From: Tidjanibacter sp.
GTDB lineage: Bacteria; Bacteroidota; Bacteroidia; Bacteroidales; Rikenellaceae
Direction: 5' to 3'
Length of the DNA stretch: 40,372 bases
NCBI GenBank assembly: GCA_017466345.1
Contig: JAFTUI010000019.1
Coordinates: 1-40,372, forward strand
Below the pieces are notes generated by a model, which ran no database searches, had not been told where the DNA came from, and was given only the letters and a program-made list of their open reading frames with translations. Both the position numbers and the translations under genes were made by a program. Of the stretch, positions 2,211-27,873 are shown in pieces. Position 1 is the first letter of the stretch. The number at the start of each line of letters is the position of its first letter.

Positions 2211-2330
2211 GAGTGCATATCGCTGAGGGATTTTTGTGCCAATCGAGCAAGCAAGTCCGCAGTTTGCTGGGCGCAAATGAGGAACTTGCGAGGCGAAGAG
2301 TGGTGCAAAAAGCACCAGCGAGATGCAGTC
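2211..2330. repeat. Core-loop hairpin element, copy 1
   Basis: This 120-bp imperfect inverted repeat has outer arms 2211-2225 (GAGTGCATATCGCTG) and 2316-2330 (CAGCGAGATGCAGTC), and middle arms around TTTTTGTGCC and GGTGCAAAAAG. The conserved 26-nt core at 2257-2282 starts CCGCAGTTTGC and ends GCAAATGAGG. The core contains its own stem, TTTGC with GCAAA. The element lies between the ABC-F gene and tsaE and ends 17 bp before the tsaE start. It is open in one frame and would extend the TsaE reading frame artificially. Confidence 0.8.
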
Positions 2331-2347
2331 GAACAACGCAACAAGGT

Positions 2348-2764
2348 ATGAGAGAACTTAATATAAATGGATTGGGCGATTTGTCCGAGGCGGCAGAGGA
2401 GATACTTGACGCTTTGGACGGTAGGAATGTAGTGGCGTTTTTTGGTGCTATGGGTGCGGGTAAAACCACGCTCATACGCGAGATTTGCGCCCAACTTGGT
2501 AGCGAGGATGTGGTCACAAGCCCCACATTTGCACTCGTGAACCGCTACGAGAGTGGCGATGGACGCCCACTCTACCACTTCGACTTCTACCGCATAGAGC
2601 GAGCAGAGGAGGCGTTCGATATGGGCTATGAGGAGTATTTCTACTCCGAGGGTTTGTGCTTTGTGGAGTGGTCTGAGAAGATTGAGGAGTTGCTGCCCGA
2701 TGATGTTATGAGGGTTAGCATCGAGGTACTCAGCCCCACAAAACGCCACATAGAGATAGACTAA
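2348..2764 (+). CDS. tsaE: tRNA threonylcarbamoyladenosine ATPase TsaE
   Basis: TsaE is the small ATPase that works with TsaB and TsaD to make the universal t6A37 modification of ANN-decoding tRNAs in the cytoplasm. The 138-residue protein carries a P-loop near residues 34-44 (FGAMGAGKTTL), followed by TSPTFALVNRY and the YHFDFYRIE segment characteristic of the family. I chose the ATG at 2348. The frame is open back to 2213, but that upstream part is translated from a repeat element found elsewhere in non-coding DNA, and the resulting 45 residues do not resemble TsaE. The stop is followed 39 bp later by the HAD gene on the same strand, so the two may be cotranscribed. Confidence 0.95.
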   Translation: MRELNINGLGDLSEAAEEILDALDGRNVVAFFGAMGAGKTTLIREICAQLGSEDVVTSPTFALVNRYESGDGRPLYHFDFYRIERAEEAFDMGYEEYFYSEGLCFVEWSEKIEELLPDDVMRVSIEVLSPTKRHIEID

Positions 2765-2803
2765 TGATATATATTACGACACCCACTAAACCCACAGCAA
2801 TAA

Positions 2804-3406
2804 ATGATTAAAAATGCCATATTCGACCTTGGCGGAGTGGTCTTAGGTCGCGATTTCAAAAGGCTTGGCGAGGTGTTGGGCAACACATTTGCCTTCATCT
2901 CTGCCGATGAGAGTTTCCCCGAGTATTGGAGCGAGTTCGACAGGGGTACCTACACCCGCGAGGAGGTAACCCGTATGCTTGCCAAGGACTACAACCTCAC
3001 ATTGGAGGATGCTCACGAGCAGGTACAACGCCTCTTGGAGTTGTTGCAACCCATCCCCGAGACTGTCGCACTCATCGAGGAACTGAAAGCGAGGGGCATA
3101 AGGTGCTATGTGCTGTCGAATATGTCAAAGGAGTTCTATGCCGAACTGCTGAAATTCCCCGTCTTTGAGCTATTTGATGGTGCTGTGGTGTCGTTTGAGG
3201 AGCGCATCAATAAGCCCGACAGGGGTATCTATGAGGCTCTGCTCTCGCGCTACAATCTGGTGCCCTCGGAGAGCATCTTTGCCGATGATAAAATCGCCAA
3301 CACCGAGGCTGCATCACTCCTCGGACTCCACACTGTGACCTACAACTGCAATGGCGATGGTCCCGAGCGTGTGCGCGAGATTATTTGGCGCGAGAACGGG
3401 TGGTAG
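2804..3406 (+). CDS. HAD-superfamily hydrolase (YihX-like phosphatase)
   Basis: This 200-residue haloacid dehalogenase-fold protein is probably a small-molecule phosphatase. Motif I is FDLGGVVLGRD near residues 7-17, with the nucleophile Asp but Gly in place of the usual second Asp. That is typical of the YihX/epoxide-hydrolase-like subgroup. Motif II is CYVLSNMS, motif III includes the Lys in INKPDRGIY, and motif IV is SIFADDKIAN. A helical cap lies between motifs I and II. The substrate cannot be inferred. The gene follows tsaE by 39 bp and is closed by a strong bidirectional terminator shared with the convergent methyltransferase gene. Confidence 0.9.
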   Translation: MIKNAIFDLGGVVLGRDFKRLGEVLGNTFAFISADESFPEYWSEFDRGTYTREEVTRMLAKDYNLTLEDAHEQVQRLLELLQPIPETVALIEELKARGIRCYVLSNMSKEFYAELLKFPVFELFDGAVVSFEERINKPDRGIYEALLSRYNLVPSESIFADDKIANTEAASLLGLHTVTYNCNGDGPERVREIIWRENGW

Positions 3407-3420
3407 TAGACGTTGAAGAC

Positions 3421-3480
3421 ATTTTTGGTATATAAAAAACGAGAGTTCTCATAAACTCTCGTTTTTTATATACCAAAAAT
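3421..3480. terminator. Perfect 27-bp-arm bidirectional terminator
   Basis: Two perfectly complementary 27-bp arms (3421-3447 and 3454-3480) surround a 6-nt loop. The stem has a GC centre (GAGAGTT/AACTCTC) flanked by A and T tracts, so it can terminate transcription from either side. It sits between the convergent HAD and methyltransferase genes. The right arm covers the stop codon and last codons of the methyltransferase gene. Confidence 0.93.
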
Positions 3481-4191
3481 GAATATCGTAGGACGCTTAT
3501 GGAGTGTCGGCTTTGGGGCTTTGCGCCACTCGGCAACACTCAAAGTGCGGATACTCTCGGTGGGGGCTGTAATATCCACAGCCACCGTAAGGCGTGTGGT
3601 GGGCAGCAGCACCGACAAAAATTCCTCGAAGAGTTTATCGTTGCGATAGGGAGCCTCAATGAAAATTTGGCTTTGGTGCTCGGCTATTGCCCTACGCTCG
3701 TAGTTTTTTATGGTCTTAGCCCTCTCGGCAGGTTTTATGGGCAGGTAGCCGCCAAAGGCAAACGACTGACCATTCTGACCGCTCGCCATAAGTGCCATAA
3801 GGATTGACGATGGTCCCACAAGTGGCACTACCTCAATGCCTTTGCGCTGTGCAAGAGCCACCACATCCGCTCCTGGGTCGGCAACACCCGGCAGTCCTGC
3901 CTCGCTGATAATACCGCAGTCCCTACCCTCCAACACGGGGCGCAGAAGTGGCTCCACGTCCACCACAGAGGTATGTTCGCTACACTCGGCAAACTCCAAC
4001 TCCTCAATGGGGCGACCTATCTTTGCGGCACTCAAAAAACGCCTTGCCGAGCGCACATTCTCCACAATGAAGTAGTCCAAACGTGCCATAACAGCCCTAT
4101 TAGCCTCAGGCAGCACATCGTAGGGGTTCCCCTCGCTGATGGGGCAAGGGAGCATATAGATTTTGCCGTATTTTTTCTTCTCTGCCGCCAT
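3466..4191 (-). CDS. SAM-dependent methyltransferase, RsmI/tetrapyrrole methylase family
   Basis: The 241-residue protein has the tetrapyrrole-methylase fold shared by RsmI, the 16S rRNA C1402 2'-O-methyltransferase. Visible features are the N-terminal strand KIYMLPCPI, the ISEAGLPGVADPGADVV motif near residues 95-111, VVPLVGPSSILMALMASG, and FIEAPYRNDKLFEE. It lacks the usual RsmI C-terminal extension and is shorter than E. coli RsmI (about 286). Bacteroidota often carry a second such short paralogue, so the exact rRNA target is uncertain. It starts 3 bp after the MurF-Alr stop and is probably translationally coupled to it. Its last codons lie in the shared terminator stem. Confidence 0.88.
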   Translation of the reverse strand: MAAEKKKYGKIYMLPCPISEGNPYDVLPEANRAVMARLDYFIVENVRSARRFLSAAKIGRPIEELEFAECSEHTSVVDVEPLLRPVLEGRDCGIISEAGLPGVADPGADVVALAQRKGIEVVPLVGPSSILMALMASGQNGQSFAFGGYLPIKPAERAKTIKNYERRAIAEHQSQIFIEAPYRNDKLFEEFLSVLLPTTRLTVAVDITAPTESIRTLSVAEWRKAPKPTLHKRPTIFIFGI

Positions 4192-4194
4192 CGC

Positions 4195-6510
4195 CTACTC
4201 CTTTACATATATACGTTTCACGCGCGTGGATATGGAGGTCATAACCTCGTAGGGGATGGTGCCGAGCCTCTCTGCCATCTGCTCCACCGAGCCGCCCTCG
4301 CCACCGAAGACAACCACCTCATCGCCCTCCTTACACTCAACATCCGACACGTCTATCATACAGCTGTCCATACAAACTCTGCCCACAATGGGTGCAGCCT
4401 TACCCGCCACACTCATACTCCACGCCCCGCAGCCGAGTCGGCGGTCCAAACCATCGGCATATCCAATGGGTATTGTTGCCACCTTCGTAGGGCGGGTAAT
4501 CTTGCCCGCTCTGCCGTAGCCCACGGTCTCGCCCTCTGCAAGAGTGCGCACTTGCACAATGCGGGTAGTAAGTCTGGAAATGGGTTGTGTACCCTCGCCC
4601 ACACCATACAGACCGATACCCAAGCGGCACATATCGTACATCGACTCCTCGAAGTGTTCTATGCCTGCCGTATTGTTGATATGGCGGAGTGGTTTGTAGG
4701 GCAGCGACTTCATAATAGCCTCCGACACCTCGGCAAAAACTCTTTGTTGTCTTGCGACATAGTCCCTCTCCTCGGGCATATCGGCAGTGGCAAAGTGCGA
4801 GAATATACTTCTCACCGTAAGCACACCGCGTAGTTCCTCCAAGCGACTCGTTAGTCTTGCCACATCGCCCATCTCGAAGCCCAAGCGGTGCATACCGCTA
4901 TCTATCTTGATATGTATGGGGTAGTCGCTCTCTCCCGCCACCTCCACAGCCTTAGCAAATGCTTCGAGCGAGGAGAAATTGTAAATCTCGGGCTCCAAAC
5001 GGTAGGCAGTCATCAGCGCAAAACTATCCGAGTCGGCATTGAGCACCACAATAGGCATAGTTATACCCTTATGGCGCAACACAACACCCTCGTCAGCAAA
5101 AGCCACCGCGAGATAATCAACCCCCTCGTGTTGCAGTTTGGAGGCTATCTCATAGTCGCCGTGCCCATAGCTCGAAGCCTTAACCATTGCCATCAGTTTT
5201 GTTCCCTGAGGCAGTCGGCTACGGTAGTGGTTGAGATTTTGCACCATAGTGGAGAGATTGACCTCCAAGACTGTCGTGTGACATTGGCGCGAAGTGGCGT
5301 GTACTATGCGGTCGAAGCCCGACATAGGTCCGCCCTTGATAAGCACCGCTGCACCATCGAACATCTCTTGTGAGAATGTTTTCAGAAACTCATCGGTAGA
5401 GGAGTAGAACTCATCCGTATCGGCAAAAAAATGTTTGTGGGCGGCAATGAAACGCCCCACACCTATAACTTTCTCCACTCCCGCACCACGAGTAATCTGC
5501 GCCACGCGCGAGTATATATCCTCGTCTTTAAGTGTGCTATAAAGCATATCGGAGAGCACCACCACACGCCGTCTGCCACCCGCCACCTCGGCAAGTGCAT
5601 TCAGCGCAATGGCTATGGAGTTGATGTCCGAGTTGTGGGTATCGCTCAATATCACCGCATCGCCAAAGCCCTCGGCAAGCGATAGGCGCAACCTTACGGG
5701 CTCACAGTCGGCAAGTTTTCGCTCCACCTCCGTGCGGTCATAGCCGAGCATCTCGTAGAGTTCGCTCACCATAGCCCTCAGGCTCTCTACCCCCCTCTTA
5801 TTCTTCACGCCCGCCAAAGCCTCAATAATATGGTGCGAAGTGGAGTTGTAGATGACATTGCGGGTGCGGGCAAAGAGCACCGCCTTCTCGGCTGCCTTGT
5901 GTGACCTATCCACGAAGTTCTCATCGTGTTGGCTTCCGAGTGCTGTGAAGATACCCACATCGGGGCGGATAACAGCCTCCAAACGAGCCATCTCATCGGG
6001 ACGCGATATGCCCGCCTCTATGACGGCTATATCCTCGTTGCCCTCCATCATAAGGAGCGACAGAGCAACACCCAACTGCGAGTTATAACTTCTGGGCGAG
6101 CGGAAGACCTTCACACCCTCGGGTGCACACTCGGCAATCCACTCCTTCACTGCTGTCTTGCCCGTGGAGCCCGTAACGGCAACCATCACTCCATCGAAGT
6201 GGCGGCGATAGTCGGCAGCAAGACTCTGCAACGCCCTAAGCGAACGACCTACAACAACAAAACCCGCTTCGGGGTACTCCTCGGCATTAATATCCCTCTC
6301 GACCATAAAAGCCCTCACGCCCCTACGGTAGAGGTCGCCTATGAAGTTGTGACCATCGTGATTGATACCGGCAATAGCCACAAACATAGGTGCGCTCTCG
6401 GGCGCAAAACTATGGCGTGAGTCGGTCATTACGCTCCTCACCTCCACATCGCATCCCAAGAGCCTCCCCCCTTTGGCGATGCCCGCAATTTCTGATAGTC
6501 TATACTTCAT
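4195..6510 (-). CDS. Bifunctional MurF / alanine racemase fusion
   Basis: This 771-residue fusion is typical of Bacteroidota. The N-terminal Mur ligase part (about 1-400) joins D-Ala-D-Ala to UDP-MurNAc-tripeptide. Its ATP-binding loop is GSTGKT at residues 114-119, with IEAGISRPDEM and SDTHNSD further on. The C-terminal part (about 405-771) is a PLP-dependent alanine racemase that supplies D-Ala. The PLP lysine is K444 in MVKASSYGHGD, and the substrate-side Tyr lies in TVGYGRAGK. KIDSGMHRLGF and VGRVCMDSCMIDV are further Alr motifs. Both activities feed cytoplasmic peptidoglycan precursor synthesis. The methyltransferase gene follows after 3 bp. A possible promoter lies just upstream at 6536-6543. 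Confidence 0.96.
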   Translation of the reverse strand: MKYRLSEIAGIAKGGRLLGCDVEVRSVMTDSRHSFAPESAPMFVAIAGINHDGHNFIGDLYRRGVRAFMVERDINAEEYPEAGFVVVGRSLRALQSLAADYRRHFDGVMVAVTGSTGKTAVKEWIAECAPEGVKVFRSPRSYNSQLGVALSLLMMEGNEDIAVIEAGISRPDEMARLEAVIRPDVGIFTALGSQHDENFVDRSHKAAEKAVLFARTRNVIYNSTSHHIIEALAGVKNKRGVESLRAMVSELYEMLGYDRTEVERKLADCEPVRLRLSLAEGFGDAVILSDTHNSDINSIAIALNALAEVAGGRRRVVVLSDMLYSTLKDEDIYSRVAQITRGAGVEKVIGVGRFIAAHKHFFADTDEFYSSTDEFLKTFSQEMFDGAAVLIKGGPMSGFDRIVHATSRQCHTTVLEVNLSTMVQNLNHYRSRLPQGTKLMAMVKASSYGHGDYEIASKLQHEGVDYLAVAFADEGVVLRHKGITMPIVVLNADSDSFALMTAYRLEPEIYNFSSLEAFAKAVEVAGESDYPIHIKIDSGMHRLGFEMGDVARLTSRLEELRGVLTVRSIFSHFATADMPEERDYVARQQRVFAEVSEAIMKSLPYKPLRHINNTAGIEHFEESMYDMCRLGIGLYGVGEGTQPISRLTTRIVQVRTLAEGETVGYGRAGKITRPTKVATIPIGYADGLDRRLGCGAWSMSVAGKAAPIVGRVCMDSCMIDVSDVECKEGDEVVVFGGEGGSVEQMAERLGTIPYEVMTSISTRVKRIYVKE

Positions 6511-6535
6511 AATTCAAAATGCAAAATTCAAAATG

Positions 6536-6543
6536 CAAAATTA
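6536..6543 (-). promoter_or_regulatory. Possible -7 box for murF-alr
   Basis: On the minus strand this reads TAATTTTG, matching the Bacteroidota -7 pattern TAnnTTTG, about 25 bp upstream of the ATG at 6510. It lies inside an AT-rich repeat (ATTCAAAATGCAAA), so a chance match is possible. Confidence 0.4.
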
Positions 6544-6598
6544 ACAGACCTCTTCCACATCTCTCAGTCCTCCCATAACTCCCATAACTCCCATAAGC

Positions 6599-6628
6599 CT
6601 TAGGACTATTGACGTTAGACGTTAGACC
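6599..6628. repeat. ACGTTAG heptamer module
   Basis: The sequence TTAGGACTATTG is followed by two tandem copies of ACGTTAG. The same module occurs near 13259, 15980, 23051 and, inverted, 27904, with a related form at 11019. Here it directly precedes the hairpin element at 6640-6758, as it does at 13259 and 23051 and, in mirror image, at 27904. Confidence 0.8.
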
Positions 6629-6639
6629 AAAATCCCTGC

Positions 6640-6758
6640 GGGTGATTTATGTGTGGCGAGTTCAAGGCTTGGTTTTGATTTTGCTCCGGAGTTTACATAA
6701 GGTAAATGAGGAAGCAAAATCAAAAGCGTAACGCAGAAATCGCCCACAGAAATCAGCC
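6640..6758. repeat. Core-loop hairpin element, copy 2
   Basis: A 119-bp inverted repeat just downstream of the M3 peptidase gene. The inner arms are a perfect 13-bp pair, TTTTGATTTTGCT (6673-6685) and AGCAAAATCAAAA (6713-6725). The outer arms 6641-6663 and 6736-6757 are imperfectly complementary. The 26-nt core at 6686-6711 starts CCGGAGTTTAC and ends GTAAATGAGG. Its internal stem is TTTAC/GTAAA, where other copies have TTTGC/GCAAA. Confidence 0.85.
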
Positions 6759-6763
6759 GCTCG

Positions 6764-8848
6764 CTATCGCAAAATCTCATCAATAAGTGCCTGCGTCTCA
6801 GGCTTATGACCACGGAACGCAACATAGAGGTCCATAGGATGGCGGATGCTACCCTTCGAGAGCACCTCCTCGCGGAAGCGATTACCACACTCGCGCGAGA
6901 AAATACCCATCTCCTTGAAGAGTTCAAAGGCGTCTGCATCCAAAACCTCTGCCCACTTATAGCCATAATAGCCTGCTGCATAACCGCCAGCAAAGATATG
7001 GCTGAACGAGCAACCCATATGTGTTCCCTCAACAGCGGGCAACACCTCGGTAGCCTTAGCAGCCTTGCGCTCGAATGCCATAACATCCTCAATAGGCTCC
7101 GAAATGGTGTGGTATGCCATATCTATCATACCGAACGACACCTGGCGCACATTGTAGTATGCTGCGAGGTATTTCTTCGAAGCGATAATTTTATTTCTCA
7201 ACTCCTCGGGCATCTTCTCGCCGGTCTGGTAGTGTACGGCAACGATGTCGAGGAACTCGGGTTGTACAGCCCAATTTTCCAACACCTGGCTGGGCAACTC
7301 CACAAAGTCACGGTAGACATTGGTACCCGTCTGCGACTCGTAGGTACCCTCGGCAAACAGACCGTGCAGGCAGTGACCAAACTCGTGAAGGAAGGTCTCG
7401 AACTCATCGAAGGTGAGTAGCGAAGGAGCCGTCTCGGTGGGTTTGGTGAAGTTGCCACAGAGCGAAATGAAGGGGCGATACTCCACACCATCCACGGTCT
7501 TCATCTCGCGGAAGGCGGTCATCCACGCGCCACCACGCTTGGTAGCCCTGGGGAAGAAGTCCATATAGAGAACACCGAGGAAGTCGCCATTCTCCTCCAA
7601 AACCTCGTATGCCTTAACATCGGGGTGGTAGACCTCAATCTCGCTATTTTCCACAAAACGGATACCATAGAGCCTCTCGGCAAGAGTGAAGATACCCTTC
7701 TTGACGTTCTCCAACTCGAAATATGGTTTCACATCCTCCTCGTTGTAGTCGAAAGTTGCGACCTTATATTTCTCGCTCCAATAAGCCCAATCCCAAGGCA
7801 TAAGTTCGTAGTCGGCACCATTGCGGCGTGCAAACTTAGCCACAGTCTTATAGTCCTTCTTGGCATATTTGATGGTTGCCGAGCGGAGCTCTTCGAGGAA
7901 GTCGTTGACGGTCTTGGTATTCTCTGCCATACGCTCCTCCAAAACAAAGTCTGCATAGTTGTCATAGCCGAAGAGGTGTGCGCTCTGCAAGCGGAGTTCG
8001 GCGATGCGTTTAACATTCGCAAGGTTGTCATACTCGCCACCCACACACTTGGTACTCGAAGCCCTCCAAACCTTCTCTTTGAGTTCCCTATTGGAAGAGT
8101 AGGTCATAAAGGGGAACATACTTGCCTGTTGGAGAGTCACAGTCCAGCCCTGCTCGCCACGAGCCTTAGCCTCGGCAGCCATAGCGTCACGCACAAAAGC
8201 GGGCAACTCTGCAACCTGAGCCTCATCGGTAATGTTGAGCGAGAAAGCATTGGTTGCCGAGAGAACATTCTGCTCGAACTGCAACGACAGAGAAGAGAGT
8301 TCCTCGGAAATCCTCCTATACTCCTCCTTCTGCTCGTCATTGAGGTTGGCACCATTGCGCACAAAGCCCTTATAGGTGTCCTCCAACAACTTTGCATCCT
8401 CCTCATTCAAATTGAGGCTCTCCTTCTGCTCATAGACAGCCTTTACCCTCTCCCAAAGCGTGGGGTTGAGGTTTACATCGTTCGAGAAGGCGATGAGTTT
8501 GGGCTGCACCTCCAAAGCCAAAGCCTGCATCTCGTCACTCGTCTCATTGCCATTGAGCACAAAGAAGATGGTCGAAACGTGGTTCAACAACTCGCCACTA
8601 CGCTCCATTGCAACGATGGTATTCTCGAAGGTGGGAGCTTCGGGGTTGCCTACGATAGCATCCATCTCAGCCCTCGCCTCTGCCAAAGCGTAGTCGAAAG
8701 CAGGCATATAGTACTCCAACTCTATTTTCGAGAACTCGGGCGTACCATAGGGGGTCTTGCCCTGATTAATAAGGGGGTTGTTCTTGATAGAATCGCAACC
8801 CATCATTACAGCCGCTGCCATAACAAGTGTCAAAATTTTAGTTTTCAT
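6764..8848 (-). CDS. M3 family metallopeptidase (peptidyl-dipeptidase Dcp-like) lipoprotein
   Basis: This 694-residue zinc peptidase of family M3 (thimet oligopeptidase/Dcp) trims short peptides. The zinc motif HEFGH lies at residues 488-492 within FETFLHEFGHCLHGLF. The downstream LPSQVLENW segment and the SFSHIFAGGYAAGYYGYKW segment are typical M3 active-site regions. The N-terminus (MKTKILTLVMAAAVMMGCDS) is a lipoprotein signal peptide with the lipobox Cys at residue 18, so the enzyme is probably anchored in the envelope. Length fits the family (about 680-700). It is transcribed alone, with repeats on both sides. I found no clear -7 box upstream. A core-loop hairpin starts 5 bp after its stop codon. 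Confidence 0.95.
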   Translation of the reverse strand: MKTKILTLVMAAAVMMGCDSIKNNPLINQGKTPYGTPEFSKIELEYYMPAFDYALAEARAEMDAIVGNPEAPTFENTIVAMERSGELLNHVSTIFFVLNGNETSDEMQALALEVQPKLIAFSNDVNLNPTLWERVKAVYEQKESLNLNEEDAKLLEDTYKGFVRNGANLNDEQKEEYRRISEELSSLSLQFEQNVLSATNAFSLNITDEAQVAELPAFVRDAMAAEAKARGEQGWTVTLQQASMFPFMTYSSNRELKEKVWRASSTKCVGGEYDNLANVKRIAELRLQSAHLFGYDNYADFVLEERMAENTKTVNDFLEELRSATIKYAKKDYKTVAKFARRNGADYELMPWDWAYWSEKYKVATFDYNEEDVKPYFELENVKKGIFTLAERLYGIRFVENSEIEVYHPDVKAYEVLEENGDFLGVLYMDFFPRATKRGGAWMTAFREMKTVDGVEYRPFISLCGNFTKPTETAPSLLTFDEFETFLHEFGHCLHGLFAEGTYESQTGTNVYRDFVELPSQVLENWAVQPEFLDIVAVHYQTGEKMPEELRNKIIASKKYLAAYYNVRQVSFGMIDMAYHTISEPIEDVMAFERKAAKATEVLPAVEGTHMGCSFSHIFAGGYAAGYYGYKWAEVLDADAFELFKEMGIFSRECGNRFREEVLSKGSIRHPMDLYVAFRGHKPETQALIDEILR

Positions 8849-8934: not shown

Positions 8935-9080
8935 ACATACCTCTCCCGCCCTTCGGGCACCCTCCCCTAACTTAGGGGAGGGAAGTGGTTGTGGGACTCC
9001 CATATCTCTCAGTTCTCCCATAACTCCCATTTACAGCTCCCCTAAGTTAGGGGAGCTGTCGCAACGCGACTGAGGGGTCT
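8935..9080. repeat. CTCCCCTAA palindrome family, two inverted copies
   Basis: One copy (about 8939-8990) reads ACCTCTCCCGCCCTTCGGGC, then CCCTCCCCTAACTTAGGGG. The other (about 9038-9080) contains CTCCCCTAAGTTAGGGGAG, then CTGTCGCAACGCGACTGAGG. They flank a copy of a CCCATAACTCCCAT repeat. The gap 8849-9095 holds nothing else recognisable apart from TTTTCAA heptamers at 9080-9113. Confidence 0.75.
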
Positions 9081-10276: not shown

Positions 10277-10312
10277 ATTTTCAATTCTCAATTTTCAATT
10301 TTCAATTCAAAA
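10277..10312. repeat. TTCTCAA/TTTTCAA heptamer tandem repeat
   Basis: About five degenerate heptamers between pdxA and trmB, of the same family as at the window start. It is non-coding. Confidence 0.8.
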
Positions 10313-10313
10313 C

Positions 10314-11012
10314 TTACTCTTTTTCTTCGTATGTAAACTCCCTCTTACCGCCCAGCGAGAAGCGCAGGTAGGTAATAGGCATACCCTGCGCCAAAAACTT
10401 CGTCTCGTAGGCGGTCTTTACCGAGAGTGTTTCATCGGCATAACCCGTGCCGTAGATGTCGTTATTGGCAACCTCTACGGGTAGTTCGTTTTGGGCGATG
10501 ACCTCTTTGGTGTACTCGTGCAGGAACTGCGAGTCGGTTTTGAGGTTTATCATACCGCCCTTGCGCAATATCTTAGCGTAGCGAGCCAAGAACAACGGAC
10601 CCGTAAGGCGGTGTTTAGCCCTCTGCTTGGGCATCTGTGGGTCGGGGAAGGTAATCCATATCTCGCTAACCTCGCCCTCGGCAAACATCGAGGAGATAAA
10701 TTCTATGCGTGTGCGCAGAAAGCCCGCATTAGCGATACCTCGCTCGGTGACAGTCTTGGCACCACGCCACATCCTCGCGCCCTTAATATCCACGCCGATG
10801 AAGTTCTTGTCGGGGTTGCGCTCGGCAAGAGCCACCGTATATTCGCCCCTACCACAGCCGAGTTCGAGGACTATTGGGTTGTGGTTGCCGAAAAACTCGT
10901 GCCATTTACCCTTCATAGGGTGGTCCACACCAAAGACCTCCTCGAATGCAGGCTGCACCAAGCACTCGAAGGTCAAATTCTCGTTAAATCTTCTTATTTT
11001 ATCTTTTCCCAT
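10314..11012 (-). CDS. trmB: tRNA (guanine-N7-)-methyltransferase TrmB
   Basis: TrmB makes m7G46 in the variable loop of tRNAs using S-adenosylmethionine. The 232-residue protein shows the Rossmann motif I VLELGCGRGEYTVALAERNP, then FIGVDIKGARMWRGAK. The family-specific ITFPDPQMPKQRAKHRLTG motif carries the catalytic region, followed by LKTDSQFLHEYT. It is about the usual length. The ATG at 11012 gives MGKDKIRRF. It lies between two repeat-filled gaps, so it is probably expressed on its own. Confidence 0.96.
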   Translation of the reverse strand: MGKDKIRRFNENLTFECLVQPAFEEVFGVDHPMKGKWHEFFGNHNPIVLELGCGRGEYTVALAERNPDKNFIGVDIKGARMWRGAKTVTERGIANAGFLRTRIEFISSMFAEGEVSEIWITFPDPQMPKQRAKHRLTGPLFLARYAKILRKGGMINLKTDSQFLHEYTKEVIAQNELPVEVANNDIYGTGYADETLSVKTAYETKFLAQGMPITYLRFSLGGKREFTYEEKE

Positions 11013-11124: not shown

Positions 11125-11193
11125 CAATTCTCAATTCTCAACTCTCAATTCTCAATTCTCAACTCTCAACTCTCAATTCTCAATTCTCAATTC
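11125..11193. repeat. Long TTCTCAA heptamer array
   Basis: Nine to ten tandem heptamers (TTCTCAA, with CTCTCAA and ACTCTCA variants). The array runs into the last codons of the GldH-like gene, whose C-terminal DRIEN is encoded within the repeat sequence. Confidence 0.85.
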
Positions 11194-11611
11194 TATCCAC
11201 CCTCACTCCTACGTTCCACACGCCATCGGTGGGTTGGCAGGGTGTGAGCAAGAAGCGATAGTCGCCCACCTCGCCAAAGCAGGCATCCTCTATCCAGTCG
11301 GCAGAGAACTCCACAAACGAGCCTCCCGTATGTCTTGCGCTCGGTGTGAGCACCACCTCGCCCGCATAGTTCGCTCCTGAGGGGCTTTGCACCTCCACCC
11401 TCAGCGGCAACAACTCCTTGGCGTGCGCCGCCTCACAACGTGCCACCACCGCCAAGTTGTGGAGCGAGAGGGTGTCGTCACTATCGTAGCACACTTCCAC
11501 AGCATCGCACCACTCTGCCCTTGGGGTGTCCGCCACAGCAGCACCCACAGGACGTTCGCTACACGACACCGCAACAAGCGCAACAAAAGTTATGAGCCAG
11601 CACTTGGGCAT
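11180..11611 (-). CDS. GldH-like lipoprotein
   Basis: This 143-residue lipoprotein has the signal peptide MPKCWLITFVALVAVSC with lipobox VAVSC, so Cys17 is the likely lipidated residue. The mature part is short and beta-rich. I call it GldH-like mainly from context. In Bacteroidota a GldH-family lipoprotein gene commonly follows the PSP1/RicT gene, as here, and the TLSLHNLAVVARC and GDYRFLLTP segments fit. Its ATG overlaps the ricT stop codon by one base (TAATG), implying translational coupling. The C-terminus runs into a heptamer array and may have been altered by it. A role in gliding is not implied, because the family is widespread in non-motile Bacteroidales. Confidence 0.6.
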   Translation of the reverse strand: MPKCWLITFVALVAVSCSERPVGAAVADTPRAEWCDAVEVCYDSDDTLSLHNLAVVARCEAAHAKELLPLRVEVQSPSGANYAGEVVLTPSARHTGGSFVEFSADWIEDACFGEVGDYRFLLTPCQPTDGVWNVGVRVDRIEN

Positions 11612-13089: not shown

Positions 13090-13258
13090 AAATTGAGAGT
13101 GGAAAATGTTGGGGAAATTGGGGATGAGGGGAGCAAGGAAGAACAGGAAGAACAGGAAGGATGGGAAGAATGGGGGTATTAAGGGCGTTAAAGCCCTTAA
13201 AGCCCTCAAAGCCCTCAAACTCATATAAGCCTTATATGCCTTATAAGCCCTATAAGCC
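13090..13258. repeat. Degenerate 9-bp tandem repeats
   Basis: Two blocks with a 9-bp period. The first (about 13125-13180) has units like GAAGAACAG. The second (about 13183-13258) has units like CCCTTAAAG, CCCTCAAAG and CCTTATAAG. The second runs straight into the ACGTTAG module at 13259. The gap 13051-13475 (425 bp) contains only repeats. Confidence 0.8.
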
Positions 13259-13289
13259 TTAGGACTATTGACGTTAGACGTTAGACGTA
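13259..13289. repeat. ACGTTAG heptamer module
   Basis: TTAGGACTATTG followed by two ACGTTAG units. Next comes AAAAAGTGGCTCCGCAGTTTAC (about 13290-13312), which resembles the left inner arm and the first half of a core-loop element and is probably a truncated copy. Confidence 0.8.
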
Positions 13290-13344
13290 AAAAAGTGGCT
13301 CCGCAGTTTACAGCCAACGCAAAAAACAATTATCCCAAAGAACA

Positions 13345-13470
13345 CCGAGCGCATATCGTGGAGGGATTTTTGTGCCAAATGAAAAAGTGGCTCCGCAGTT
13401 TGCTGGGCGCAAATGAGGAAGCCACTTTTGAAATTTGGTGCGAAAAGCACCCACGAGATACGCTCGTCGG
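13345..13470. repeat. Core-loop hairpin element, copy 3
   Basis: This 126-bp inverted repeat lies just downstream of efp. Outer arms CGAGCGCATATCGTGG (13346-13361) and CCACGAGATACGCTCG (13451-13466) match at 14 of 16 positions. Inner arms GTGCCAAAT..AAAAGTGGCT and AGCCACTTTTGAAATTTGGTGC pair across the core. The 26-nt core at 13393-13418 is identical to copy 1. The element ends 5 bp from the efp stop. Confidence 0.87.
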
Positions 13471-13475: not shown

Positions 13476-14045
13476 TTACTTAATCCTCTCATAGTACTCG
13501 CGTGTGCGAGTATCTACACGAATCTTATCGCCAGTATTGATAAACAAGGGAACCTTAACGGTTGCGCCGGTGTTTACGGTTGCGGGTTTGAGGGAGTTGG
13601 TCGAAGCGGTATCGCCACGCACACCGGGCTCAGTGTAGGTAACCTCCATATCGATGATAGGAGGAAGCTCAGCAGTGAGAGCCAACTCTTTCTCGGTGTG
13701 GAACATAACCTCCAAAATCTGACCGTCTACCATAAGGTCGGAGTTCTCAATAAGATCGCGAGGAATGGTAATCTCCTCAAAGGTTTCCATATGCATAAGG
13801 TGGATACCGAGGTCGTCCTCGTAGGTGTATTGGTAGGGGCGGCGCTCCACGCGAACGGGCTCGATGCGCTCACTTACCGAAGAGTAGGTTTTGTCGAGTA
13901 CGCGACCATTTTCGAGGTTTTTGAGTTTGGTGCGGATAAAGGCGGGACCTTTACCGGGTTTAACGTGCTGGAAATCGACAACAAGGAAGGTCTTGTTATC
14001 CATATCGATGCACATACCGATTTTGATGTCTGATGCTGTTGCCAT
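13476..14045 (-). CDS. efp: Translation elongation factor P
   Basis: EF-P binds between the ribosomal P and E sites and relieves stalling at polyproline stretches. The 189-residue protein has the three-domain family length. The tip loop is KPGKGPAF, with Lys32 as the residue that is modified in some bacteria. The C-terminal domain ends with the family motif GDKIRVDTRTREYYERI. Starting at MATASDIKIG agrees with other EF-Ps. It is a single-gene unit with a -7 box at 14112-14119. No EpmA/B-type modification gene is visible in the window, so the modification state is unknown. Confidence 0.98.
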   Translation of the reverse strand: MATASDIKIGMCIDMDNKTFLVVDFQHVKPGKGPAFIRTKLKNLENGRVLDKTYSSVSERIEPVRVERRPYQYTYEDDLGIHLMHMETFEEITIPRDLIENSDLMVDGQILEVMFHTEKELALTAELPPIIDMEVTYTEPGVRGDTASTNSLKPATVNTGATVKVPLFINTGDKIRVDTRTREYYERIK

Positions 14046-15864: not shown

Positions 15865-16010
15865 TGACAAGGGTTACAAGGGTAACAGGGATAACAGGGA
15901 TAACAGGGCATTAACGTCCTTAATGTCCTTAAAGTCCTTAAAGTTTTCGGGCTCGGCAACATTGCCGAGCCCGCGACTTTTGACGTTAGACCTTAGACGT
16001 TAGACTGATA
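15865..16010. repeat. 9-bp tandem repeat block, a hairpin and an ACGTTAG module
   Basis: From 15865 to 15945 there are degenerate 9-mers (TAACAGGGA, CTTAAAGTC and similar). A GC-rich hairpin follows, GGGCTCGGCAA..TTGCCGAGCCC (15949-15971), which could terminate the DUF4837 transcript. A degenerate ACGTTAG module lies at about 15979-16003. Confidence 0.75.
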
Positions 16011-17002
16011 AAATTTCGGATATCTTCTTGTAACCTCTTATAGAGAAAACAATCTTTGTAATTTTCGTTAAATAGCAGAGCATCGCGCACATTGAAGAGC
16101 GAGTTGGTGTAGTTGCTCTGCTCGTTCAGCAGTGCCTGTCCCTCGCAGCCAGAGGTGCGGATGCGCTCGCCACTAAGCAGGCGCAACTTGGCGCACACAG
16201 CCTCCAAAACCACCACCGTAACATTGTCCATCAGCGTGTGCCCGTGCATAAAGAGGTATGTATTTTCGGGCGTTACTCCTCTCCCTCGGAGCACCTTCTC
16301 AAATTCGGGCAGGCGGGCAGCGATGGCGGGGTACTCCTTTTCGAGAGCCTCTATACGGCGGGCTACTTGTCGGGCGAGCCACGCAATGGTGTTGGCTCCC
16401 GTTTGCTCAATATCGACATAACCCAAGCGCACCGTATTCTTAAAGGCGGGCAGCGTGAAGACATTGGGCGTGGCAATATGTGCCGAGTAGGCGTACCACA
16501 CAAAGGCGGGGTAGATGGTGCGGGAATACTCCTCGAAGAAACGCTCGAAGTCGAAGATTTTGGCATCGTTCTTTGTAGCCTTCACGCACACATTGTGGAG
16601 CGAGGGTGCATAGCAGAGAAAATTCTCGGTAGAATAGACGTAGGTGTGGAATATGTAGGGCGAGGAGTTGATAATCTTCGCATCGGCAGTCTGCGATGAG
16701 AAGAGGTAGTCGAAGTCGCTATCCATACACATAATATGGTTGGCATCGCACATCTCGGCACGCCCCAAGAGAGTCTTTTTGCCCTTTGCGAGTGTGGGAC
16801 TCAGAGGTACGGAGATGTCGAAGCGCAACTCGTCACTCTCGTAGGGGTCGAGTATGGCTCGCCAAAAAGCCACATCCTCGTAGCCCTCCACCTCGGCAAG
16901 TATGCGCCTACAACCCTTCGGCACGGGCAACAAAGCGGGTAGTTGCTCGCGCGGCTGTGGGCGGAAGATGCGCTGTGAGGTATGTCGGCGGTGTTTTGCC
17001 AT
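15986..17002 (-). CDS. DUF4435 (TOPRIM-like) protein
   Basis: I assign this 338-residue protein to the DUF4435 group, which has a TOPRIM-like core related to OLD-family nucleases. The supporting motifs are EVEGYEDVAFWRAIL, with the conserved Glu, and CMDSDFDYLF, with the DxD acidic pair. Between them lies a basic stretch (TLAKGKKTLLGR). The C-terminal half is helical and matches no family I know. No ATPase partner gene, as in OLD/Gabija systems, is adjacent. Its neighbour is a divergent SUI1 gene. The start is set at the ATG at 17002, since a -7 box at 17013-17020 leaves little or no leader. An ATG at 17011 would sit too close to that box. The frame upstream to 17179 is antisense to the SUI1 gene. 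Confidence 0.7.
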   Translation of the reverse strand: MAKHRRHTSQRIFRPQPREQLPALLPVPKGCRRILAEVEGYEDVAFWRAILDPYESDELRFDISVPLSPTLAKGKKTLLGRAEMCDANHIMCMDSDFDYLFSSQTADAKIINSSPYIFHTYVYSTENFLCYAPSLHNVCVKATKNDAKIFDFERFFEEYSRTIYPAFVWYAYSAHIATPNVFTLPAFKNTVRLGYVDIEQTGANTIAWLARQVARRIEALEKEYPAIAARLPEFEKVLRGRGVTPENTYLFMHGHTLMDNVTVVVLEAVCAKLRLLSGERIRTSGCEGQALLNEQSNYTNSLFNVRDALLFNENYKDCFLYKRLQEDIRNFISLTSKV

Positions 17003-17062: not shown

Positions 17063-17419
17063 ATGGCTGAAAACGATTGGAAAGCACGTTTGGGTGTGGT
17101 TTTTTCGACCAATCCCGACTTCAACTATACCACCGAAAGCGAGGAGCAGGATGTTGAAACCCTCGCCCCCGAGAGGCAAAACCTGCGTGTGTGGTTAGAC
17201 CGAAACCACCGAGGAGGCAAGACCGTCACGCTCGTCAAAGGTTTTGTGGGCTCGGAGGAGGATTTGAAAGAACTCGCCAAAGAGCTCAAAAACCGCTGTG
17301 GCGTGGGTGGCTCGGCAAAGGATGGCGAGATAATCATCCAGGGCGCACACCGCGAGCGAGTGGTGGAGATTTTGCTCTCGAAGGGCTACAACCGCACAAA
17401 AGCCGCAGGTGGGAATTGA
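17063..17419 (+). CDS. SUI1/YciH family translation factor
   Basis: The 118-residue protein has the eIF1/SUI1 fold. The family segment is VWLDRNHRGGKTVTLVKGFVG, followed by KELKNRCGVGGSAKDGEIIIQG and the C-terminal VVEILLSKGY. Bacterial YciH proteins resemble eIF1, and some affect initiation fidelity in vitro. Their physiological role is poorly defined. The N-terminal 40 residues are polar and variable. The frame is open upstream to 16982, but the ATG at 17063, just after a -7 box, fits the family. A heptamer repeat follows the stop codon directly. Confidence 0.92.
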   Translation: MAENDWKARLGVVFSTNPDFNYTTESEEQDVETLAPERQNLRVWLDRNHRGGKTVTLVKGFVGSEEDLKELAKELKNRCGVGGSAKDGEIIIQGAHRERVVEILLSKGYNRTKAAGGN

Positions 17420-17492
17420 GAATTGAGAATTGAGAATTGAGAATTATTCTCCCTCTAAGTTAGAGGGGGTGTCACGCAGTGATGGGGGGCGT
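17411..17492. repeat. TTCTCAA heptamers (inverted) followed by a palindrome-family copy
   Basis: Four GAGAATT units (17418-17446) are followed by CTCCCTCTAAGTTAGAGGGG and GTGTCACGCAGTGATGGGGG. This is the same two-hairpin layout as the CTCCCCTAA family, but with a diverged first hairpin. Confidence 0.75.
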
Positions 17493-23014: not shown

Positions 23015-23080
23015 AATTAAGGTCATTAAAGCCCTTAAAGCCCTTAAAAACTTAGGACTATTGACGTTAGACGTTAGACA
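23015..23080. repeat. 9-bp repeats and an ACGTTAG module
   Basis: GTCATTAAA/GCCCTTAAA-type 9-mers (23019-23050) are followed by CTTAGGACTATTG and two ACGTTAG units (to 23078), again directly before hairpin elements. Confidence 0.8.
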
Positions 23081-23089
23081 ATATAAAAA

Positions 23090-24334: not shown

Positions 24335-24362
24335 CGAACAGATAGTAACAACTAATAGCTTT

Positions 24363-24391
24363 GGCGAGCCGAAATTCGACTCGCCTTTTTT
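24363..24391 (+). terminator. asd intrinsic terminator
   Basis: GGCGAGCCGAA (24363-24373) pairs with TTCGACTCGCC (24375-24385) with one mismatch, followed by TTTTTT. It lies 28 bp after the asd stop. Confidence 0.9.
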
Positions 24392-24444
24392 ATCGACCGC
24401 CTACCACCTACCGTCAACCGACCTAAATCACCCCCTATGTTTCT

Positions 24445-24626
24445 CGGGTATCTTTTTTAATACCCGTGAAGATGGGGGGGGCTTTTTTGCGTGGAGGGGG
24501 TGGGTATTAAAAAAGATACCCAAGAATGAGGTGGGCGGACTCTTGGGGATGAGCGGGTATTAAAAGTAATACCCGTAAACAAAGGGGAAAGCACAAAAAA
24601 ATCGCGGGTATCGAAAAAGATACCCG
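24445..24626. repeat. Cluster of four GGGTAT/ATACCC 22-bp hairpins
   Basis: Four 22-bp hairpins lie at 24445-24466, 24501-24522, 24554-24575 and 24605-24626. Each has a 7-bp stem (CGGGTAT/ATACCCG or TGGGTAT/ATACCCA) around an 8-nt A- or T-rich loop. The first loop CTTTTTTA is the exact reverse complement of the second, TAAAAAAG, so these two copies face each other. Flanks are often G- or C-rich. Further copies are at 28065-28086 and 33983-34002. The gap 24335-24658 holds only these and the asd terminator. Confidence 0.85.
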
Positions 24627-24658
24627 CGAACGAAAAAAGTAGCCTTGTATGGCAGCTT

Positions 24659-25090
24659 CTATTTAATCTCTATTTTGCGCTGTTCGTGCTTCTGCTCTGC
24701 CTCGGGTTTCTTGGGCAGGTGGATGCAGAGGATACCCCTATCAACGTGTGCCTCGATTTTGGAGCGGTCGACATCCTCAGGCAGGAGCATTGTCTGCTGG
24801 AACTTCGAGTAGGAGAACTCGCGGCGCAGGTAGTGCGCCTCCTTATCCTCTTCTTTGTTTTCGCTGTGGTGTTCGAGGCATACCACAAGGTCGTTCTGGT
24901 CGTTCAGATGCACCGAAAAATCCTCGCGCGTCATACCGGGTGCTGCCACCTCCACTTTGTACTCTTTTTTGGTCTCCTTGACATTGATGGCAGGCGTCAC
25001 ACCCGCACCTTTCTCTAACCACTCGGCGGGCAAGAGGTCGCTAAAAAGCGATGGCATCCAGCCCTGATTGCGTCTTACGATTGCTGACAT
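24659..25090 (-). CDS. Small heat shock protein, Hsp20/alpha-crystallin family
   Basis: A 143-residue ATP-independent holdase chaperone. The alpha-crystallin domain runs from about residue 37 (INVKETKKEYKVEVAAPGMT) to about 130, with the FSYSKFQQTMLLPEDVD strand region and the family motif DRGILCIHLPKK. A short C-terminal tail (EAEQKHEQRKIEIK) follows; it contains IEI, an I-x-I motif used in oligomerisation. The N-terminus (VRRNQGWMPSLFSDLLP) matches Bacteroidota Hsp20s. The 319-bp gap upstream shows no CIRCE-like element or clear -7 box on this strand, so heat regulation cannot be read from the sequence. Confidence 0.95.
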   Translation of the reverse strand: MSAIVRRNQGWMPSLFSDLLPAEWLEKGAGVTPAINVKETKKEYKVEVAAPGMTREDFSVHLNDQNDLVVCLEHHSENKEEDKEAHYLRREFSYSKFQQTMLLPEDVDRSKIEAHVDRGILCIHLPKKPEAEQKHEQRKIEIK

Positions 25091-25409
25091 AAGCTTTCAG
25101 TTGGTTTTTTGTGTGTGAATAAATGTTTATTAGATTGATGAAACGGAGTGCCAAGCGGCACATCTCCAAAAGTTGCAAACACTGTGCCACAAGAAGAGTT
25201 GGAAAGATGGGACTTATCCCGCCACATTGGGCGTGAGGTTTGGGGGTTGAGAAGCGCTCCGACAGCCCTACGGGGTGTAGTGTGTTAAATTTTTGTTATG
25301 CACATTTTAAGTTTGTGTTAATTAAACAACAGTGGTGTTGGTCGCTCCAAAAAAGGGGCTACATTTGTAACGTCAGAAACTGCTAATTAATTAACAAAAA
25401 GTAGTATAA
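25091..25409. other. Intergenic region between hsp20 and the phosphate transporter
   Basis: This 319-bp divergent gap holds the transporter promoter at its right end (25338-25367). It also has a small GTGCC-AAGC-GGCAC hairpin at 25148-25161. I see no gene, no repeat-family copy and no recognisable riboswitch. Being free of the repeat families makes it unusual for this window and suggests regulatory sequence. Confidence 0.5.
25338..25367 (+). promoter_or_regulatory. Promoter of the PiT transporter gene
   Basis: TTG (25338-25340), a 19-bp spacer and TACATTTG (25360-25367) fit the Bacteroidota -33/-7 consensus well. The ATG follows 42 bp downstream. Confidence 0.7.
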
Positions 25410-27635
25410 ATGTCTGTAATTTACACTTTCGCCGTGGTAGTCTTGATGCTCTTGGCCATCGGCGGTCTTTATGTGGGTGTGTCGAACGATGCCGTAAACT
25501 TCCTCAACTCGGCTATCGGCTCTAAGGCGGCACCCAAAAAAGTAATCCTCACTGTTGCTTCTATCGGTATTGTCATCGGTGCGCTCACTTCGAGCGGTAT
25601 GATGGAAGTGGCTCGTAGTGGCGTTTACTATCCCGAGTTCTTCACGTTCCACGAGGTAATGATACTCTTCCTCGGCGTGATGTTCGCAAACGTGATTCTG
25701 CTCGATGTGTTCAACAGTTTGGGTTTGCCTACCTCTACGACCGTAGCCCTTGTGTTTGGTTTGCTCGGCTCGGCTATCGCTGTGAGCATCACCAAGGAGC
25801 CCATTATTGGTGCAGATGGCAACCCCGAAACACTCATCAACTCGGGCAAGGCTCTGGCGATGATTGCCGCAATTCTCCTCTCGGTGGTGTTGGCATTCAT
25901 TACGGGTACGGTGCTGATGTTCCTCAGCCGACTGCTCTTCACATTCCGCTATCACAAGCAACTCAAACGCTGGGGTGCTCTCTGGTGCGGTGTGGCTTTC
26001 ACAATCATTGTCTATTTTGCACTCATCAAAGGTCTGAAATCTTCGGGCTTGGCAGTGGATCTGGTGGCATACATCAACGAACACACAATGCTCTGCCTGC
26101 TGATTGTCTTTGCGGCAAGTTCGCTTCTGATGTTCTTGTTGCAGGCTTTGAAGGTCAATATCCTCAAAATCACCATCCTTGCAGGTACTTTCTCGCTGGC
26201 TTTGGCATTTGCAGGTAACGACCTTGTGAACTTCATCGGTGTACCTTTGGCAGGTCTTGACTCGTGGAAAATTGCACAGCAGACCGGCAATCCCGATATG
26301 CTGATGGGCGCACTCAACAATCCCGTGAAGGCAGATACCATCTTCCTCGTTGCAGCAGGTGCGATTATGATTTTCACCCTCTGGACCTCCAAGAAAACCC
26401 AGAATGTGAGCGATACCGAACTTAGCCTCTCCTCCACTCAGGATGATGGTGCAGAGAAATTCGGTTCTTCGGCTTTCTCGCGTGCTATTGTGCGTGTGGC
26501 TGTTAGTTGCAGCCGCTGGTTCGAGGACCACACCCCCAAGAAGATGCGTGCCGCTGTGGCTCGCCGCTTCGAGGCTCCCTCGGCAACCGAGTTGGGCGAT
26601 GATTATGGACAGTACGACCTTATTCGTGCAACCGTAAACCTTACCGCAGGCTCAATGCTTATCATCATAGGTACATCGTTGCAGTTGCCCCTCTCGACCA
26701 CCTACGTTACCTTTATGGTGGCTATGGGTTCTTCGCTGGCAGACAAAGCGTGGGGACGTGAGAGTGCTGTGTACCGCATCACGGGCGTGATTACTGTCGT
26801 TGCAGGTTGGTTCCTTACCGGTCTGGCAGCATTCGTACTCTCGATCGTTATAACTCTCTTACTCTACTGGGGTGGAATGGTAGCAATTGTGCTCATCTCT
26901 ATCTTGTGCGTCTATATGATGATTCCCAAGAAGAAAAAAGGCGCAAAAGAGGAGGCTGCCACTGTTCAGGTGGCTCTTGCAAACGATGAGAACGAGGTGC
27001 TCAGCAGCGCAGTAGTAGAGGTGTGCCAGACTATGCAGACCACTACCGACATCTACGCACAGACCATCGCCGCAGTGCTCCGCGAGGACCGCAAGGCTCT
27101 GCGCTCGCTCGTGCGTCAGGCCAACGACCTCTTCTATGCGGCTCGTGAGAGGAAATATGCAATGTTGCCTACCCTCCACAAGTTCCACGAAGAGAACTAC
27201 ATCGACACCGGACACTACTACGTTCAGGTTGTGGACTACATCAGCGAGATGTGTAAGGCTCTGGTGCACATCACTCGTCCTTGCTTCGAGCACATCGACA
27301 ACAACCACCGAGGTATGAGCGAGGAGCAGGTAGAGGACCTTACAACAATCAACAATTCCGTATCGGAACTCTACTCGCGCATCAACGAGATGTTGCAGGC
27401 AAACGACTTCGCAAACATCGACCTCGTGCTTGCAATGCGTGACGATTTGTTCGACCTGATTGCTCAGGCCATCAAGAACCAGCTCCGCCGCATCCAGAAC
27501 AACTCCACCTCTACCAAGGCGAGTATGCTCTATCTGACGATTCTCAATGAGACCAAGACTATGGTACTCCAAAGTCGCAACCTCTTGAAGTCGCAGAAGT
27601 ATTTTATGGATGCACAGCGCACCGAGTCCAAGTAA
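25410..27635 (+). CDS. PiT family inorganic phosphate transporter with fused PhoU-like domain
   Basis: The 741-residue inner-membrane protein imports phosphate with a cation. The membrane part (about 1-510) carries the two PiT signature repeats, GVSNDAVNFLNSAIGS at about 23-38 and AFAGNDLVNFIGVPLAG in the middle, and the STTVALVFGLLGSA and LSTTYVTFMVAMGSSLADKAWG segments. A cytoplasmic linker (about 320-400) separates the two membrane blocks. The C-terminal 200 residues are soluble and helical, resembling PhoU, and probably act as a fused regulator in place of the separate PhoU-like gene (DUF47) often paired with PiT elsewhere. No Pst/PhoR genes are nearby. A long hairpin element begins at the stop codon, and its arm reaches into the last codons. 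Confidence 0.93.
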   Translation: MSVIYTFAVVVLMLLAIGGLYVGVSNDAVNFLNSAIGSKAAPKKVILTVASIGIVIGALTSSGMMEVARSGVYYPEFFTFHEVMILFLGVMFANVILLDVFNSLGLPTSTTVALVFGLLGSAIAVSITKEPIIGADGNPETLINSGKALAMIAAILLSVVLAFITGTVLMFLSRLLFTFRYHKQLKRWGALWCGVAFTIIVYFALIKGLKSSGLAVDLVAYINEHTMLCLLIVFAASSLLMFLLQALKVNILKITILAGTFSLALAFAGNDLVNFIGVPLAGLDSWKIAQQTGNPDMLMGALNNPVKADTIFLVAAGAIMIFTLWTSKKTQNVSDTELSLSSTQDDGAEKFGSSAFSRAIVRVAVSCSRWFEDHTPKKMRAAVARRFEAPSATELGDDYGQYDLIRATVNLTAGSMLIIIGTSLQLPLSTTYVTFMVAMGSSLADKAWGRESAVYRITGVITVVAGWFLTGLAAFVLSIVITLLLYWGGMVAIVLISILCVYMMIPKKKKGAKEEAATVQVALANDENEVLSSAVVEVCQTMQTTTDIYAQTIAAVLREDRKALRSLVRQANDLFYAARERKYAMLPTLHKFHEENYIDTGHYYVQVVDYISEMCKALVHITRPCFEHIDNNHRGMSEEQVEDLTTINNSVSELYSRINEMLQANDFANIDLVLAMRDDLFDLIAQAIKNQLRRIQNNSTSTKASMLYLTILNETKTMVLQSRNLLKSQKYFMDAQRTESK

Positions 27636-27768
27636 ATCGAAAAATAACGGGTGCTTTTGGCACCAAAAATCAGAGAGCGGTTTCCTCATTTGCGCCAAGC
27701 AAACTGCGGAGCCGCTCCTTCTTTTGGCACAAAAATCCCTCCGTTATTTTTCGATTTCTTTTGGACTC
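27624..27768. repeat. Core-loop hairpin element, copy 4, overlapping the PiT gene end
   Basis: This copy is inverted relative to copies 1-3. A perfect 17-bp outer pair (27634-27650 with 27741-27757) continues outward as GAGTCCAA (27624-27631) and TTGGACTC (27761-27768), interrupted by a small bulge. The left outer arm covers the last codons and stop of the transporter gene. The inner arms GAGCGG and CCGCTC flank the 26-nt core at 27684-27709, which differs from copy 1 at one position. It could act as a terminator or an mRNA 3'-end stabiliser. Confidence 0.88.
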
Positions 27769-27782
27769 AAAAATCAATATAA

Positions 27783-27873
27783 CGAGCAACTACTGCGTTG
27801 CACTGCGATAAATCCCCTCCTCATTTACGTTTAGTAAACTGCGGAGGGGATTTTCTTGTGCGCCTACTACTCG
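27783..27873. repeat. Core-loop hairpin element, copy 5
   Basis: A 91-bp inverted repeat in the same orientation as copy 4 and 15 bp after it. A perfect 9-bp inner pair AAATCCCCT (27810-27818) and AGGGGATTT (27845-27853) surrounds the core at 27819-27844. The core stem is GTAAA/TTTAC in reverse complement, as in copy 2. The outer arms near CGAGCAACTACTGCGTTGCAC and GTGCGCCTACTACTCG are partly complementary. Confidence 0.82.

Follow-up and report, generated by a model that had tools for sequence, protein, structure and literature searches.

A family of long hairpin elements in Tidjanibacter with an ERIC-like interior, varying ends and a preferred position behind stop codons

The window analysed here is a stretch of 40,372 nucleotides from Tidjanibacter sp. 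(assembly GCA_017466345.1, contig JAFTUI010000019.1, positions 1 to 40,372 of the forward strand), and its subject is a dispersed hairpin element built around a 26-nt core. The first-pass annotation had reported five copies sharing this core; all five were found where it had placed them, and one that it had missed raises the total in the window to six. The copies, together with a half copy, are listed with their scores in bits against a covariance model of the element, R1.

2213..2328, plus strand: copy 1, model-matched part, with a GC-type core at 2257-2282; 43 bits, also a core match
6642..6756, plus strand: copy 2, AAGGC/AACGC type, core at 6686-6711; 93.4 bits
13293..13345, ends approximate, plus strand: solo 5' half copy, CTCCGCAGTTTAC without a 3' partner, found by eye
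13349..13463, plus strand: copy 3, core at 13393-13418; 58.7 bits
23176..23289, plus strand: copy 4, the copy missed earlier, with the core variant CGGAGTTTGCTCAGCGCAAATGAG; 90.3 bits
27638..27753, minus strand: copy 5, core at 27684-27709; 48.7 bits
27773..27888, minus strand: copy 6, adjoining copy 5, core at 27819-27844; 72.2 bits

The half copy lies, by eye, directly upstream of copy 3. The 3' end of copy 2 is 8 nt from the stop codon of the gene at 6764-8848 (minus strand), that of copy 3 is 13 nt from the open reading frame (ORF) at 13476-14045 (minus strand), and that of copy 5 is 3 nt from the stop codon of the gene at 25410-27635 (plus strand), into whose coding end its outer arm reaches. 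The core stem reads TTTGC/GCAAA in the copies with cores at 2257, 13393 and 27684 and TTTAC/GTAAA in those at 6686 and 27819, as first described. This change, which had been put forward as an argument for selection on the folded form, is only part of the covariation, since the variable helices covary throughout.

Analysis of the sequence around the core revealed two further motifs, AAGGC and AACGC, which lie about 17 nt upstream and about 17 nt downstream of it, respectively, and neither of which was part of the search pattern. In 50 of 115 copies both stand at the distance expected, compared with 0.0002 for shuffled flanks; by label, these are 45 of 101 Bacteroidota copies and 5 of 13 others. 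Many copies from the genus represent a second form without the AAGGC and AACGC loops. Alignment A1 holds 60 of 68 copies selected for both loops at 16-18 and 17-19 nt. RNAalifold folds it into a single long hairpin of 30 pairs, 22 of which show changes on both sides, and 91.3% of cells are paired, compared with 67.1% after shuffling. Covariation, counted over the named structure, is 0.593, against 0.162 +/- 0.009 for the shuffles and at most 0.14 for slid controls. The apical stem is nearly invariant in A1 because the copies were chosen by its letters. Alignment A2 is made up of 63 matches from 59 loci that were gathered and fitted by R1, not by the core letters. Here 28 of the 30 pairs show two-sided changes and covariation is 0.591 against 0.174; the apical stem is 99.4% paired and changes on both sides at five of its six pairs, the lowest pair being G.U in 54 of 58 distinct rows. 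Two conserved internal loops, AAGGC/AACGC and GCA/GA, are set between the freely varying helices. A lack of covariation in an enlarged alignment had been named beforehand as grounds for giving up the proposal, and the covariation in both alignments is strong.

A known Rfam RNA family finds no support as the identity of the element: no Rfam model reached its gathering score in the window or in four loci, the loci giving only sub-threshold microRNA, small nucleolar RNA and small RNA models. A covariance model is now available for this intergenic class, which has no Rfam match in the window or those loci.

The outer arms do not follow the interior. Loci L016 and L163 share an identical stretch of 96 nt and have unrelated outer arms, each self-complementary, and identical interiors occur with different outer arms within the genome of the window. 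The earlier claim that the arms pair independently holds in this genome, where the 17-bp arm of 27638-27753 is visible in the sequence, but in three other groups the outer arms are terminal inverted repeats that recur from copy to copy: GGGCAYCTCTAAAAA in family f42, which is, at a guess, Chlorobium-like, GAGACYGTTGAYGCG in genome G369 and GGCRTTTTTCATAA in genome G361. The converse was found at one orthologous site (L372:6380-6560 and L383:14100-14290) of a species pair about 95% identical, where the same outer arms enclose a different interior subfamily; this site is an interior exchange. The G369 end occurs 164 times, against 3 for a control, and also bounds elements of other sizes. These elements, of about 75-266 bp (C1:895375-895568, for example), are probably a wider group of miniature inverted-repeat transposable elements (MITEs) belonging to one transposase.

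The arm that overlaps the coding end of gene 25410-27635, seen at 27610-27765 of the window and in L320, bears on how pairing is kept. Between genomes G000 and G022 the last codons of this gene differ at two positions (GAGTCC, GAAGCC), and the two mirrored positions of the far arm differ as well, which suggests that template switching may contribute to arm pairing. Such switching in quasipalindromes is described for RNA stems (PMC8794818). It is possible, though on balance unlikely, that pairing of the variable arms is maintained mainly by this replicative correction and not by selection: the internal loops, which correction alone would remove, stay unpaired in the aligned copies, and covariation extends across phyla.

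An absence of further copies in the genome would have counted against the proposal, and such copies are numerous. Within its 1.82 Mb the core pattern was counted 93 times (62 on the plus and 31 on the minus strand), with no occurrence of the backward-read control, and the covariance model marks at least 142 places, a few of them partial; with 150 of about 550 candidates scored, 142 may be low. By simple script calls, ORFs overlap 11 of 54 copies, and we take these ORFs to be spurious or to have wrong starts. In genome G000, contigs C12, C13, C14, C17, C18, C19, C22, C27, C28 and C29 have a copy at most about 1.2 kb, and mostly at most 0.4 kb, from a contig end; copies may therefore break the assembly.

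Among 61 compared genomes the exact core pattern was found in 14, all of the same genus (14 of its 24 members, counting the genome of the window), and in none of the 37 genomes from other genera. A scan of named genomes for exact matches returned at least 116 stretches, which by title are mostly metagenome-assembled genomes of Rikenellaceae, Alistipes, Tidjanibacter and other Bacteroidales from ruminant and deer guts, some of them belonging to the window's own genus. The remaining records include Flavobacteriia, Cytophagales, Cryomorpha, Pseudoalteromonas, Halomonas, Kangiella, Marinobacterium, Ghiorsea and Gallionellaceae. At E <= 0.001 the model matched 40 of 296 genomes in a sample of the phylum, own genome included, falling in 7 of 140 genera, and 110 of 229 genomes from the class of a Pseudoalteromonas record, a set that may include enterobacteria. 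Neither phages and plasmids, searched with one element as query, nor viral contigs, searched with the core pattern, gave a match beyond one of 25 bp in a plasmid (E 0.3).

ERIC (enterobacterial repetitive intergenic consensus) elements have long been known and are widely used for typing. The letters of the ERIC primers suggest the same order of motifs as in the present element, and a relation to ERIC was tested on the strength of this resemblance. Of 5426 E. coli genomes, 5375 are matched by the 44-nt centre of ERIC, at a median of 10 places. For the comparison we used R1 and a second model, R2, made from proteobacterial, Flavobacteria-like and family f42 copies; neither contains any record labelled enterobacterial. 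R1 matched four of five E. coli ERIC loci over their full length at 14-15 bits and R2 matched all five at 16-20 bits, the five loci representing only two chromosomal sites in five strains. Across four windows of K-12 MG1655 (175 kb), two of them picked for known ERIC sites, each model gave three hits up to E = 10, and all are ERIC-type and contain the ERIC centre. The element between metR and metE, in a window not so picked, scores 43.2 bits with R2 (E 2.4e-9) and 34.7 bits with R1 (E 4.9e-8), while the ybhI-ybhJ and pgk-fbaA ERICs score 16.8 and 16.3 bits with R2 and 14.3 bits each with R1. The ERIC interior fold and motifs are thus recognised in all three K-12 hits, weakly at two of the three sites. 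The metR-metE element (L436:32910-33025), the strongest E. coli match, is unannotated in its record.

The present element shares with ERIC (RU-1) its length class, its form as a single long imperfect hairpin and its multicopy, intergenic occurrence, with at least 142 places in the genome of the window, as well as AAGGC and AACGC in that order and a GGAG-stem-TGA apical module. The palindrome measures about 127 bp, as in ERIC: homology among similar copies often stops at about -62 and +65 relative to the centre of the core, a second stop lying near 48 on each side. The two differ in the phyla that carry them, in their outer arms and, by eye, in the apical region, which here has a TTTRC stem and GCA/GA loop compared with CTTAC and GA/GA in ERIC. 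The low scores at ybhI-ybhJ and pgk-fbaA might suggest that two unrelated hairpin families have converged. We consider this very improbable, because each of the three hits in 175 kb is of ERIC type, spans the full length and has the AAGGC, apical and ACGC motifs in the right order, and because matches occur in nearly half of the genomes of the Pseudoalteromonas class sample (110 of 229). The initial view that the element resembles no named family is not supported; the matches to R1 and R2 place it with ERIC. The reports consulted place ERIC in Enterobacteriaceae and Vibrionaceae (PMC10969869, PMC2267715). The parts of the literature searched contained no account of ERIC in Bacteroidota, and among the matches listed for literature containing the core strings nothing was apparently related. 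By description only, the element may also be likened to the Correia/NEMIS elements, which are short, MITE-like and transcribed (PMC10969869).

Mobility, suggested at the outset in the form of a MITE-like element, finds support in two other genomes. In G369, 12 of 19 copies are bordered by perfect target duplications of 5 bp (expected 0.00), and in G361 9 of 20 are bordered by perfect ones of 8 bp (expected 0.05), the 39 copies being among the best-scoring of 188 matches in both genomes. In both, the element thus combines the terminal inverted repeats and target duplication of a MITE. ERIC in enterobacteria duplicates TA, and its transfer mechanism is stated as not elucidated (PMC2759123). Since the duplications here differ from TA, being 5 bp, 8 bp or none visible, we file the element in a related superfamily and not as ERIC proper. 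The differing ends and duplication lengths would mean, on this reading, that the machinery inserting this same interior has varied from host to host. A partner protein did not emerge from an all-against-all comparison of ORFs from 143 loci, in which the 15 largest clusters looked by eye like housekeeping genes, and no full insertion sequence with G369 ends was seen by eye among 100 of 164 places listed. When the closely related G013 and G018 were compared for empty sites, no clean insertion emerged; besides the interior exchange above, another site had a copy that was half deleted and whose interior was of a different type. In the genome of the window, direct 9-mers or longer are shared by the outer flanks of 11 of 89 copies, against about 4 in mismatched pairs, and by eye these 11 turn out to be copies in tandem and repeats of other kinds.

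REP or BIME repeats moved by RAYT, like REPINs, are also dispersed, extragenic and hairpin-forming, and outside the genus 13 of 16 element-bearing genomes contain the Y1 transposase domain PF01797. That the element belongs to them is nonetheless the least probable of the readings we weighed: PF01797 was found in none of the 14 element-bearing members of the genus, the conserved part here is apical, and a REP, at 20-40 bp, is three to six times shorter than the element. CGTC-tagged REPs, reported also from Bacteroidetes and Chlorobi, are of that length and carry an unpaired CGTC tag which, by eye, is unlike the motif here (PMC3733652, for the REP lengths, tag and hosts).

The position of the copies relative to genes was analysed for 53 copies in fetched stretches, one partial match being left out, using simple ORF calls of at least 130 aa. 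On the 3' side a converging gene is present at 43 of 52 copies, and in 28 of these its stop codon lies within 23 nt; at the 5' end none of 51 copies has a stop codon that close (Fisher 5e-11, tandem copies counted singly). The proposal that these are 3'-end elements is supported by this position. By nearest ORF the bias in gene direction is nearly flat, and it becomes clear once distance to the stop codon is measured. Other Bacteroidota-labelled loci, some from the same genus, have a stop codon within 30 nt at 25 of 43 3' ends compared with 3 of 44 5' ends, 79 of 131 cores near locus ends being left out of this count. ERIC is itself said, in a Yersinia study, to be preferentially oriented next to stop codons, as is the case in the window's genome and these loci. 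The K-12 ybhI element ends 10 nt from the ybhI stop codon, antisense to ybhI. Behind gene 25410-27635, genomes G000, G022, G021 and G009 carry the element or a degenerate form of it, and several element-free sister species carry a terminator-like hairpin (both by eye). ERIC has been reported as a terminator or stability element in Yersinia (PMC10969869, PMC2267715).

Orientation is also coherent along contigs, with 12 of 12 copies on the minus strand in C8 and 12 of 12 on the plus strand in C12, while genes run about half each way. The modelled strand is C-rich for 46 of 54 copies (mean contig skew, counted by hand; these copies are clustered and not independent). Five of seven copies agree in G123; in G233 three agree and three lie where the sampled skew is near zero. 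These features, with PF01797 in most element-bearing genomes outside the genus, could indicate that the interior is a single-stranded DNA hairpin that movement requires, bound by a transposase or a host factor at replication forks, and that placement behind stop codons is mere tolerance. We regard this as rather unlikely. Orientation by replication strand is explained equally well by placement behind leading-strand genes, the target duplications suggest double-strand transposases, and PF01797, absent from the 14 element-bearing genus genomes (several of them incomplete), is present in one element-free member.

Overall, we conclude, with a probability of roughly 0.8, that the copies belong to an ERIC superfamily as non-autonomous, MITE-like mobile elements whose ends are exchangeable, and that they are kept as hairpins in 3' untranslated regions (UTRs), the last role being our interpretation. 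The conserved interior, an apical stem over the GCA/GA loop together with the AAGGC/AACGC loop, sits within helices that are free in sequence and held, probably by selection, to pairing. Exchangeable terminal inverted repeats would let different transposases insert the element, presumably in trans and in this genome as elsewhere. The fixed orientation of many copies directly behind stop codons suggests that these lie in the 3' UTR of the incoming gene and are probably read as such; the element is likely co-transcribed with the gene upstream. Its hairpin may there act as, or replace, a terminator or mRNA-end structure.

Several results weigh against this conclusion. Where a gene runs into the element, it is the complement of the modelled strand that is transcribed, and strand polarity, judged by G.U against C.A mismatches, is weak (63:36 in A1, 62:54 in A2). 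The eight usable non-Bacteroidota copies show no asymmetry (3/8 against 2/8), and just one of the three K-12 elements has the stop-codon arrangement, those at pgk-fbaA and metR-metE being without it. In a comparison of the region downstream of gene 6764-8848 across 22 genomes, the spacer of the element-free species G013, G014 and G018 is short, and a terminator is not evident there. No fixed-length target duplication stands out among 89 copies in the genome of the window, no transposase for the element was found in the searches described, and the TA duplication of ERIC is not seen in G369 or G361. As to the ERIC relation, the ybhI-ybhJ and pgk-fbaA ERICs reach just 14-17 bits (E 0.1-0.3 over 175 kb), leaving metR-metE as the sole K-12 element significant by itself, with model E-values that are rough.

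A wider proposal is offered tentatively, at somewhat less than even odds. The ERIC interior may be ancient and portable, spanning Bacteroidota and several proteobacterial classes, repeatedly swapping terminal repeats and thereby carried by at least three unrelated transposases with 2-, 5- and 8-bp duplications, its two conserved internal loops being retained through recognition in 3' UTRs by a conserved cellular factor. That this interior recurs in other phyla while ends and duplications differ provides a natural comparison that separates the constant interior from the ends needed by a transposase.

Other repeats were observed in the window. A second dispersed repeat, CTTAGGACTATTGACGTTAGACGTTAGAC, is present at 6599-6635, 13258-13294, 15977-16013, 23051-23087 and, inverted, about 27909-27945, often near copies of the element. 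Short hairpins like TCGGGTATCTTTTTTAATACCCG, several of them clustered, lie at 24441-24639, 28061-28092 and 33978-34017. Near-perfect hairpins like CCCTCCCCTAASTTAGGGGAGGG occur in pairs at 2015-2113 and 8960-9057, with about 75 nt between them at both sites, and arrays of a 7-nt unit, AATTCTC or AATTTTC, are found at 1-42, 10277-10317, 11127-11202, 17410-17445 and 30109-30163.

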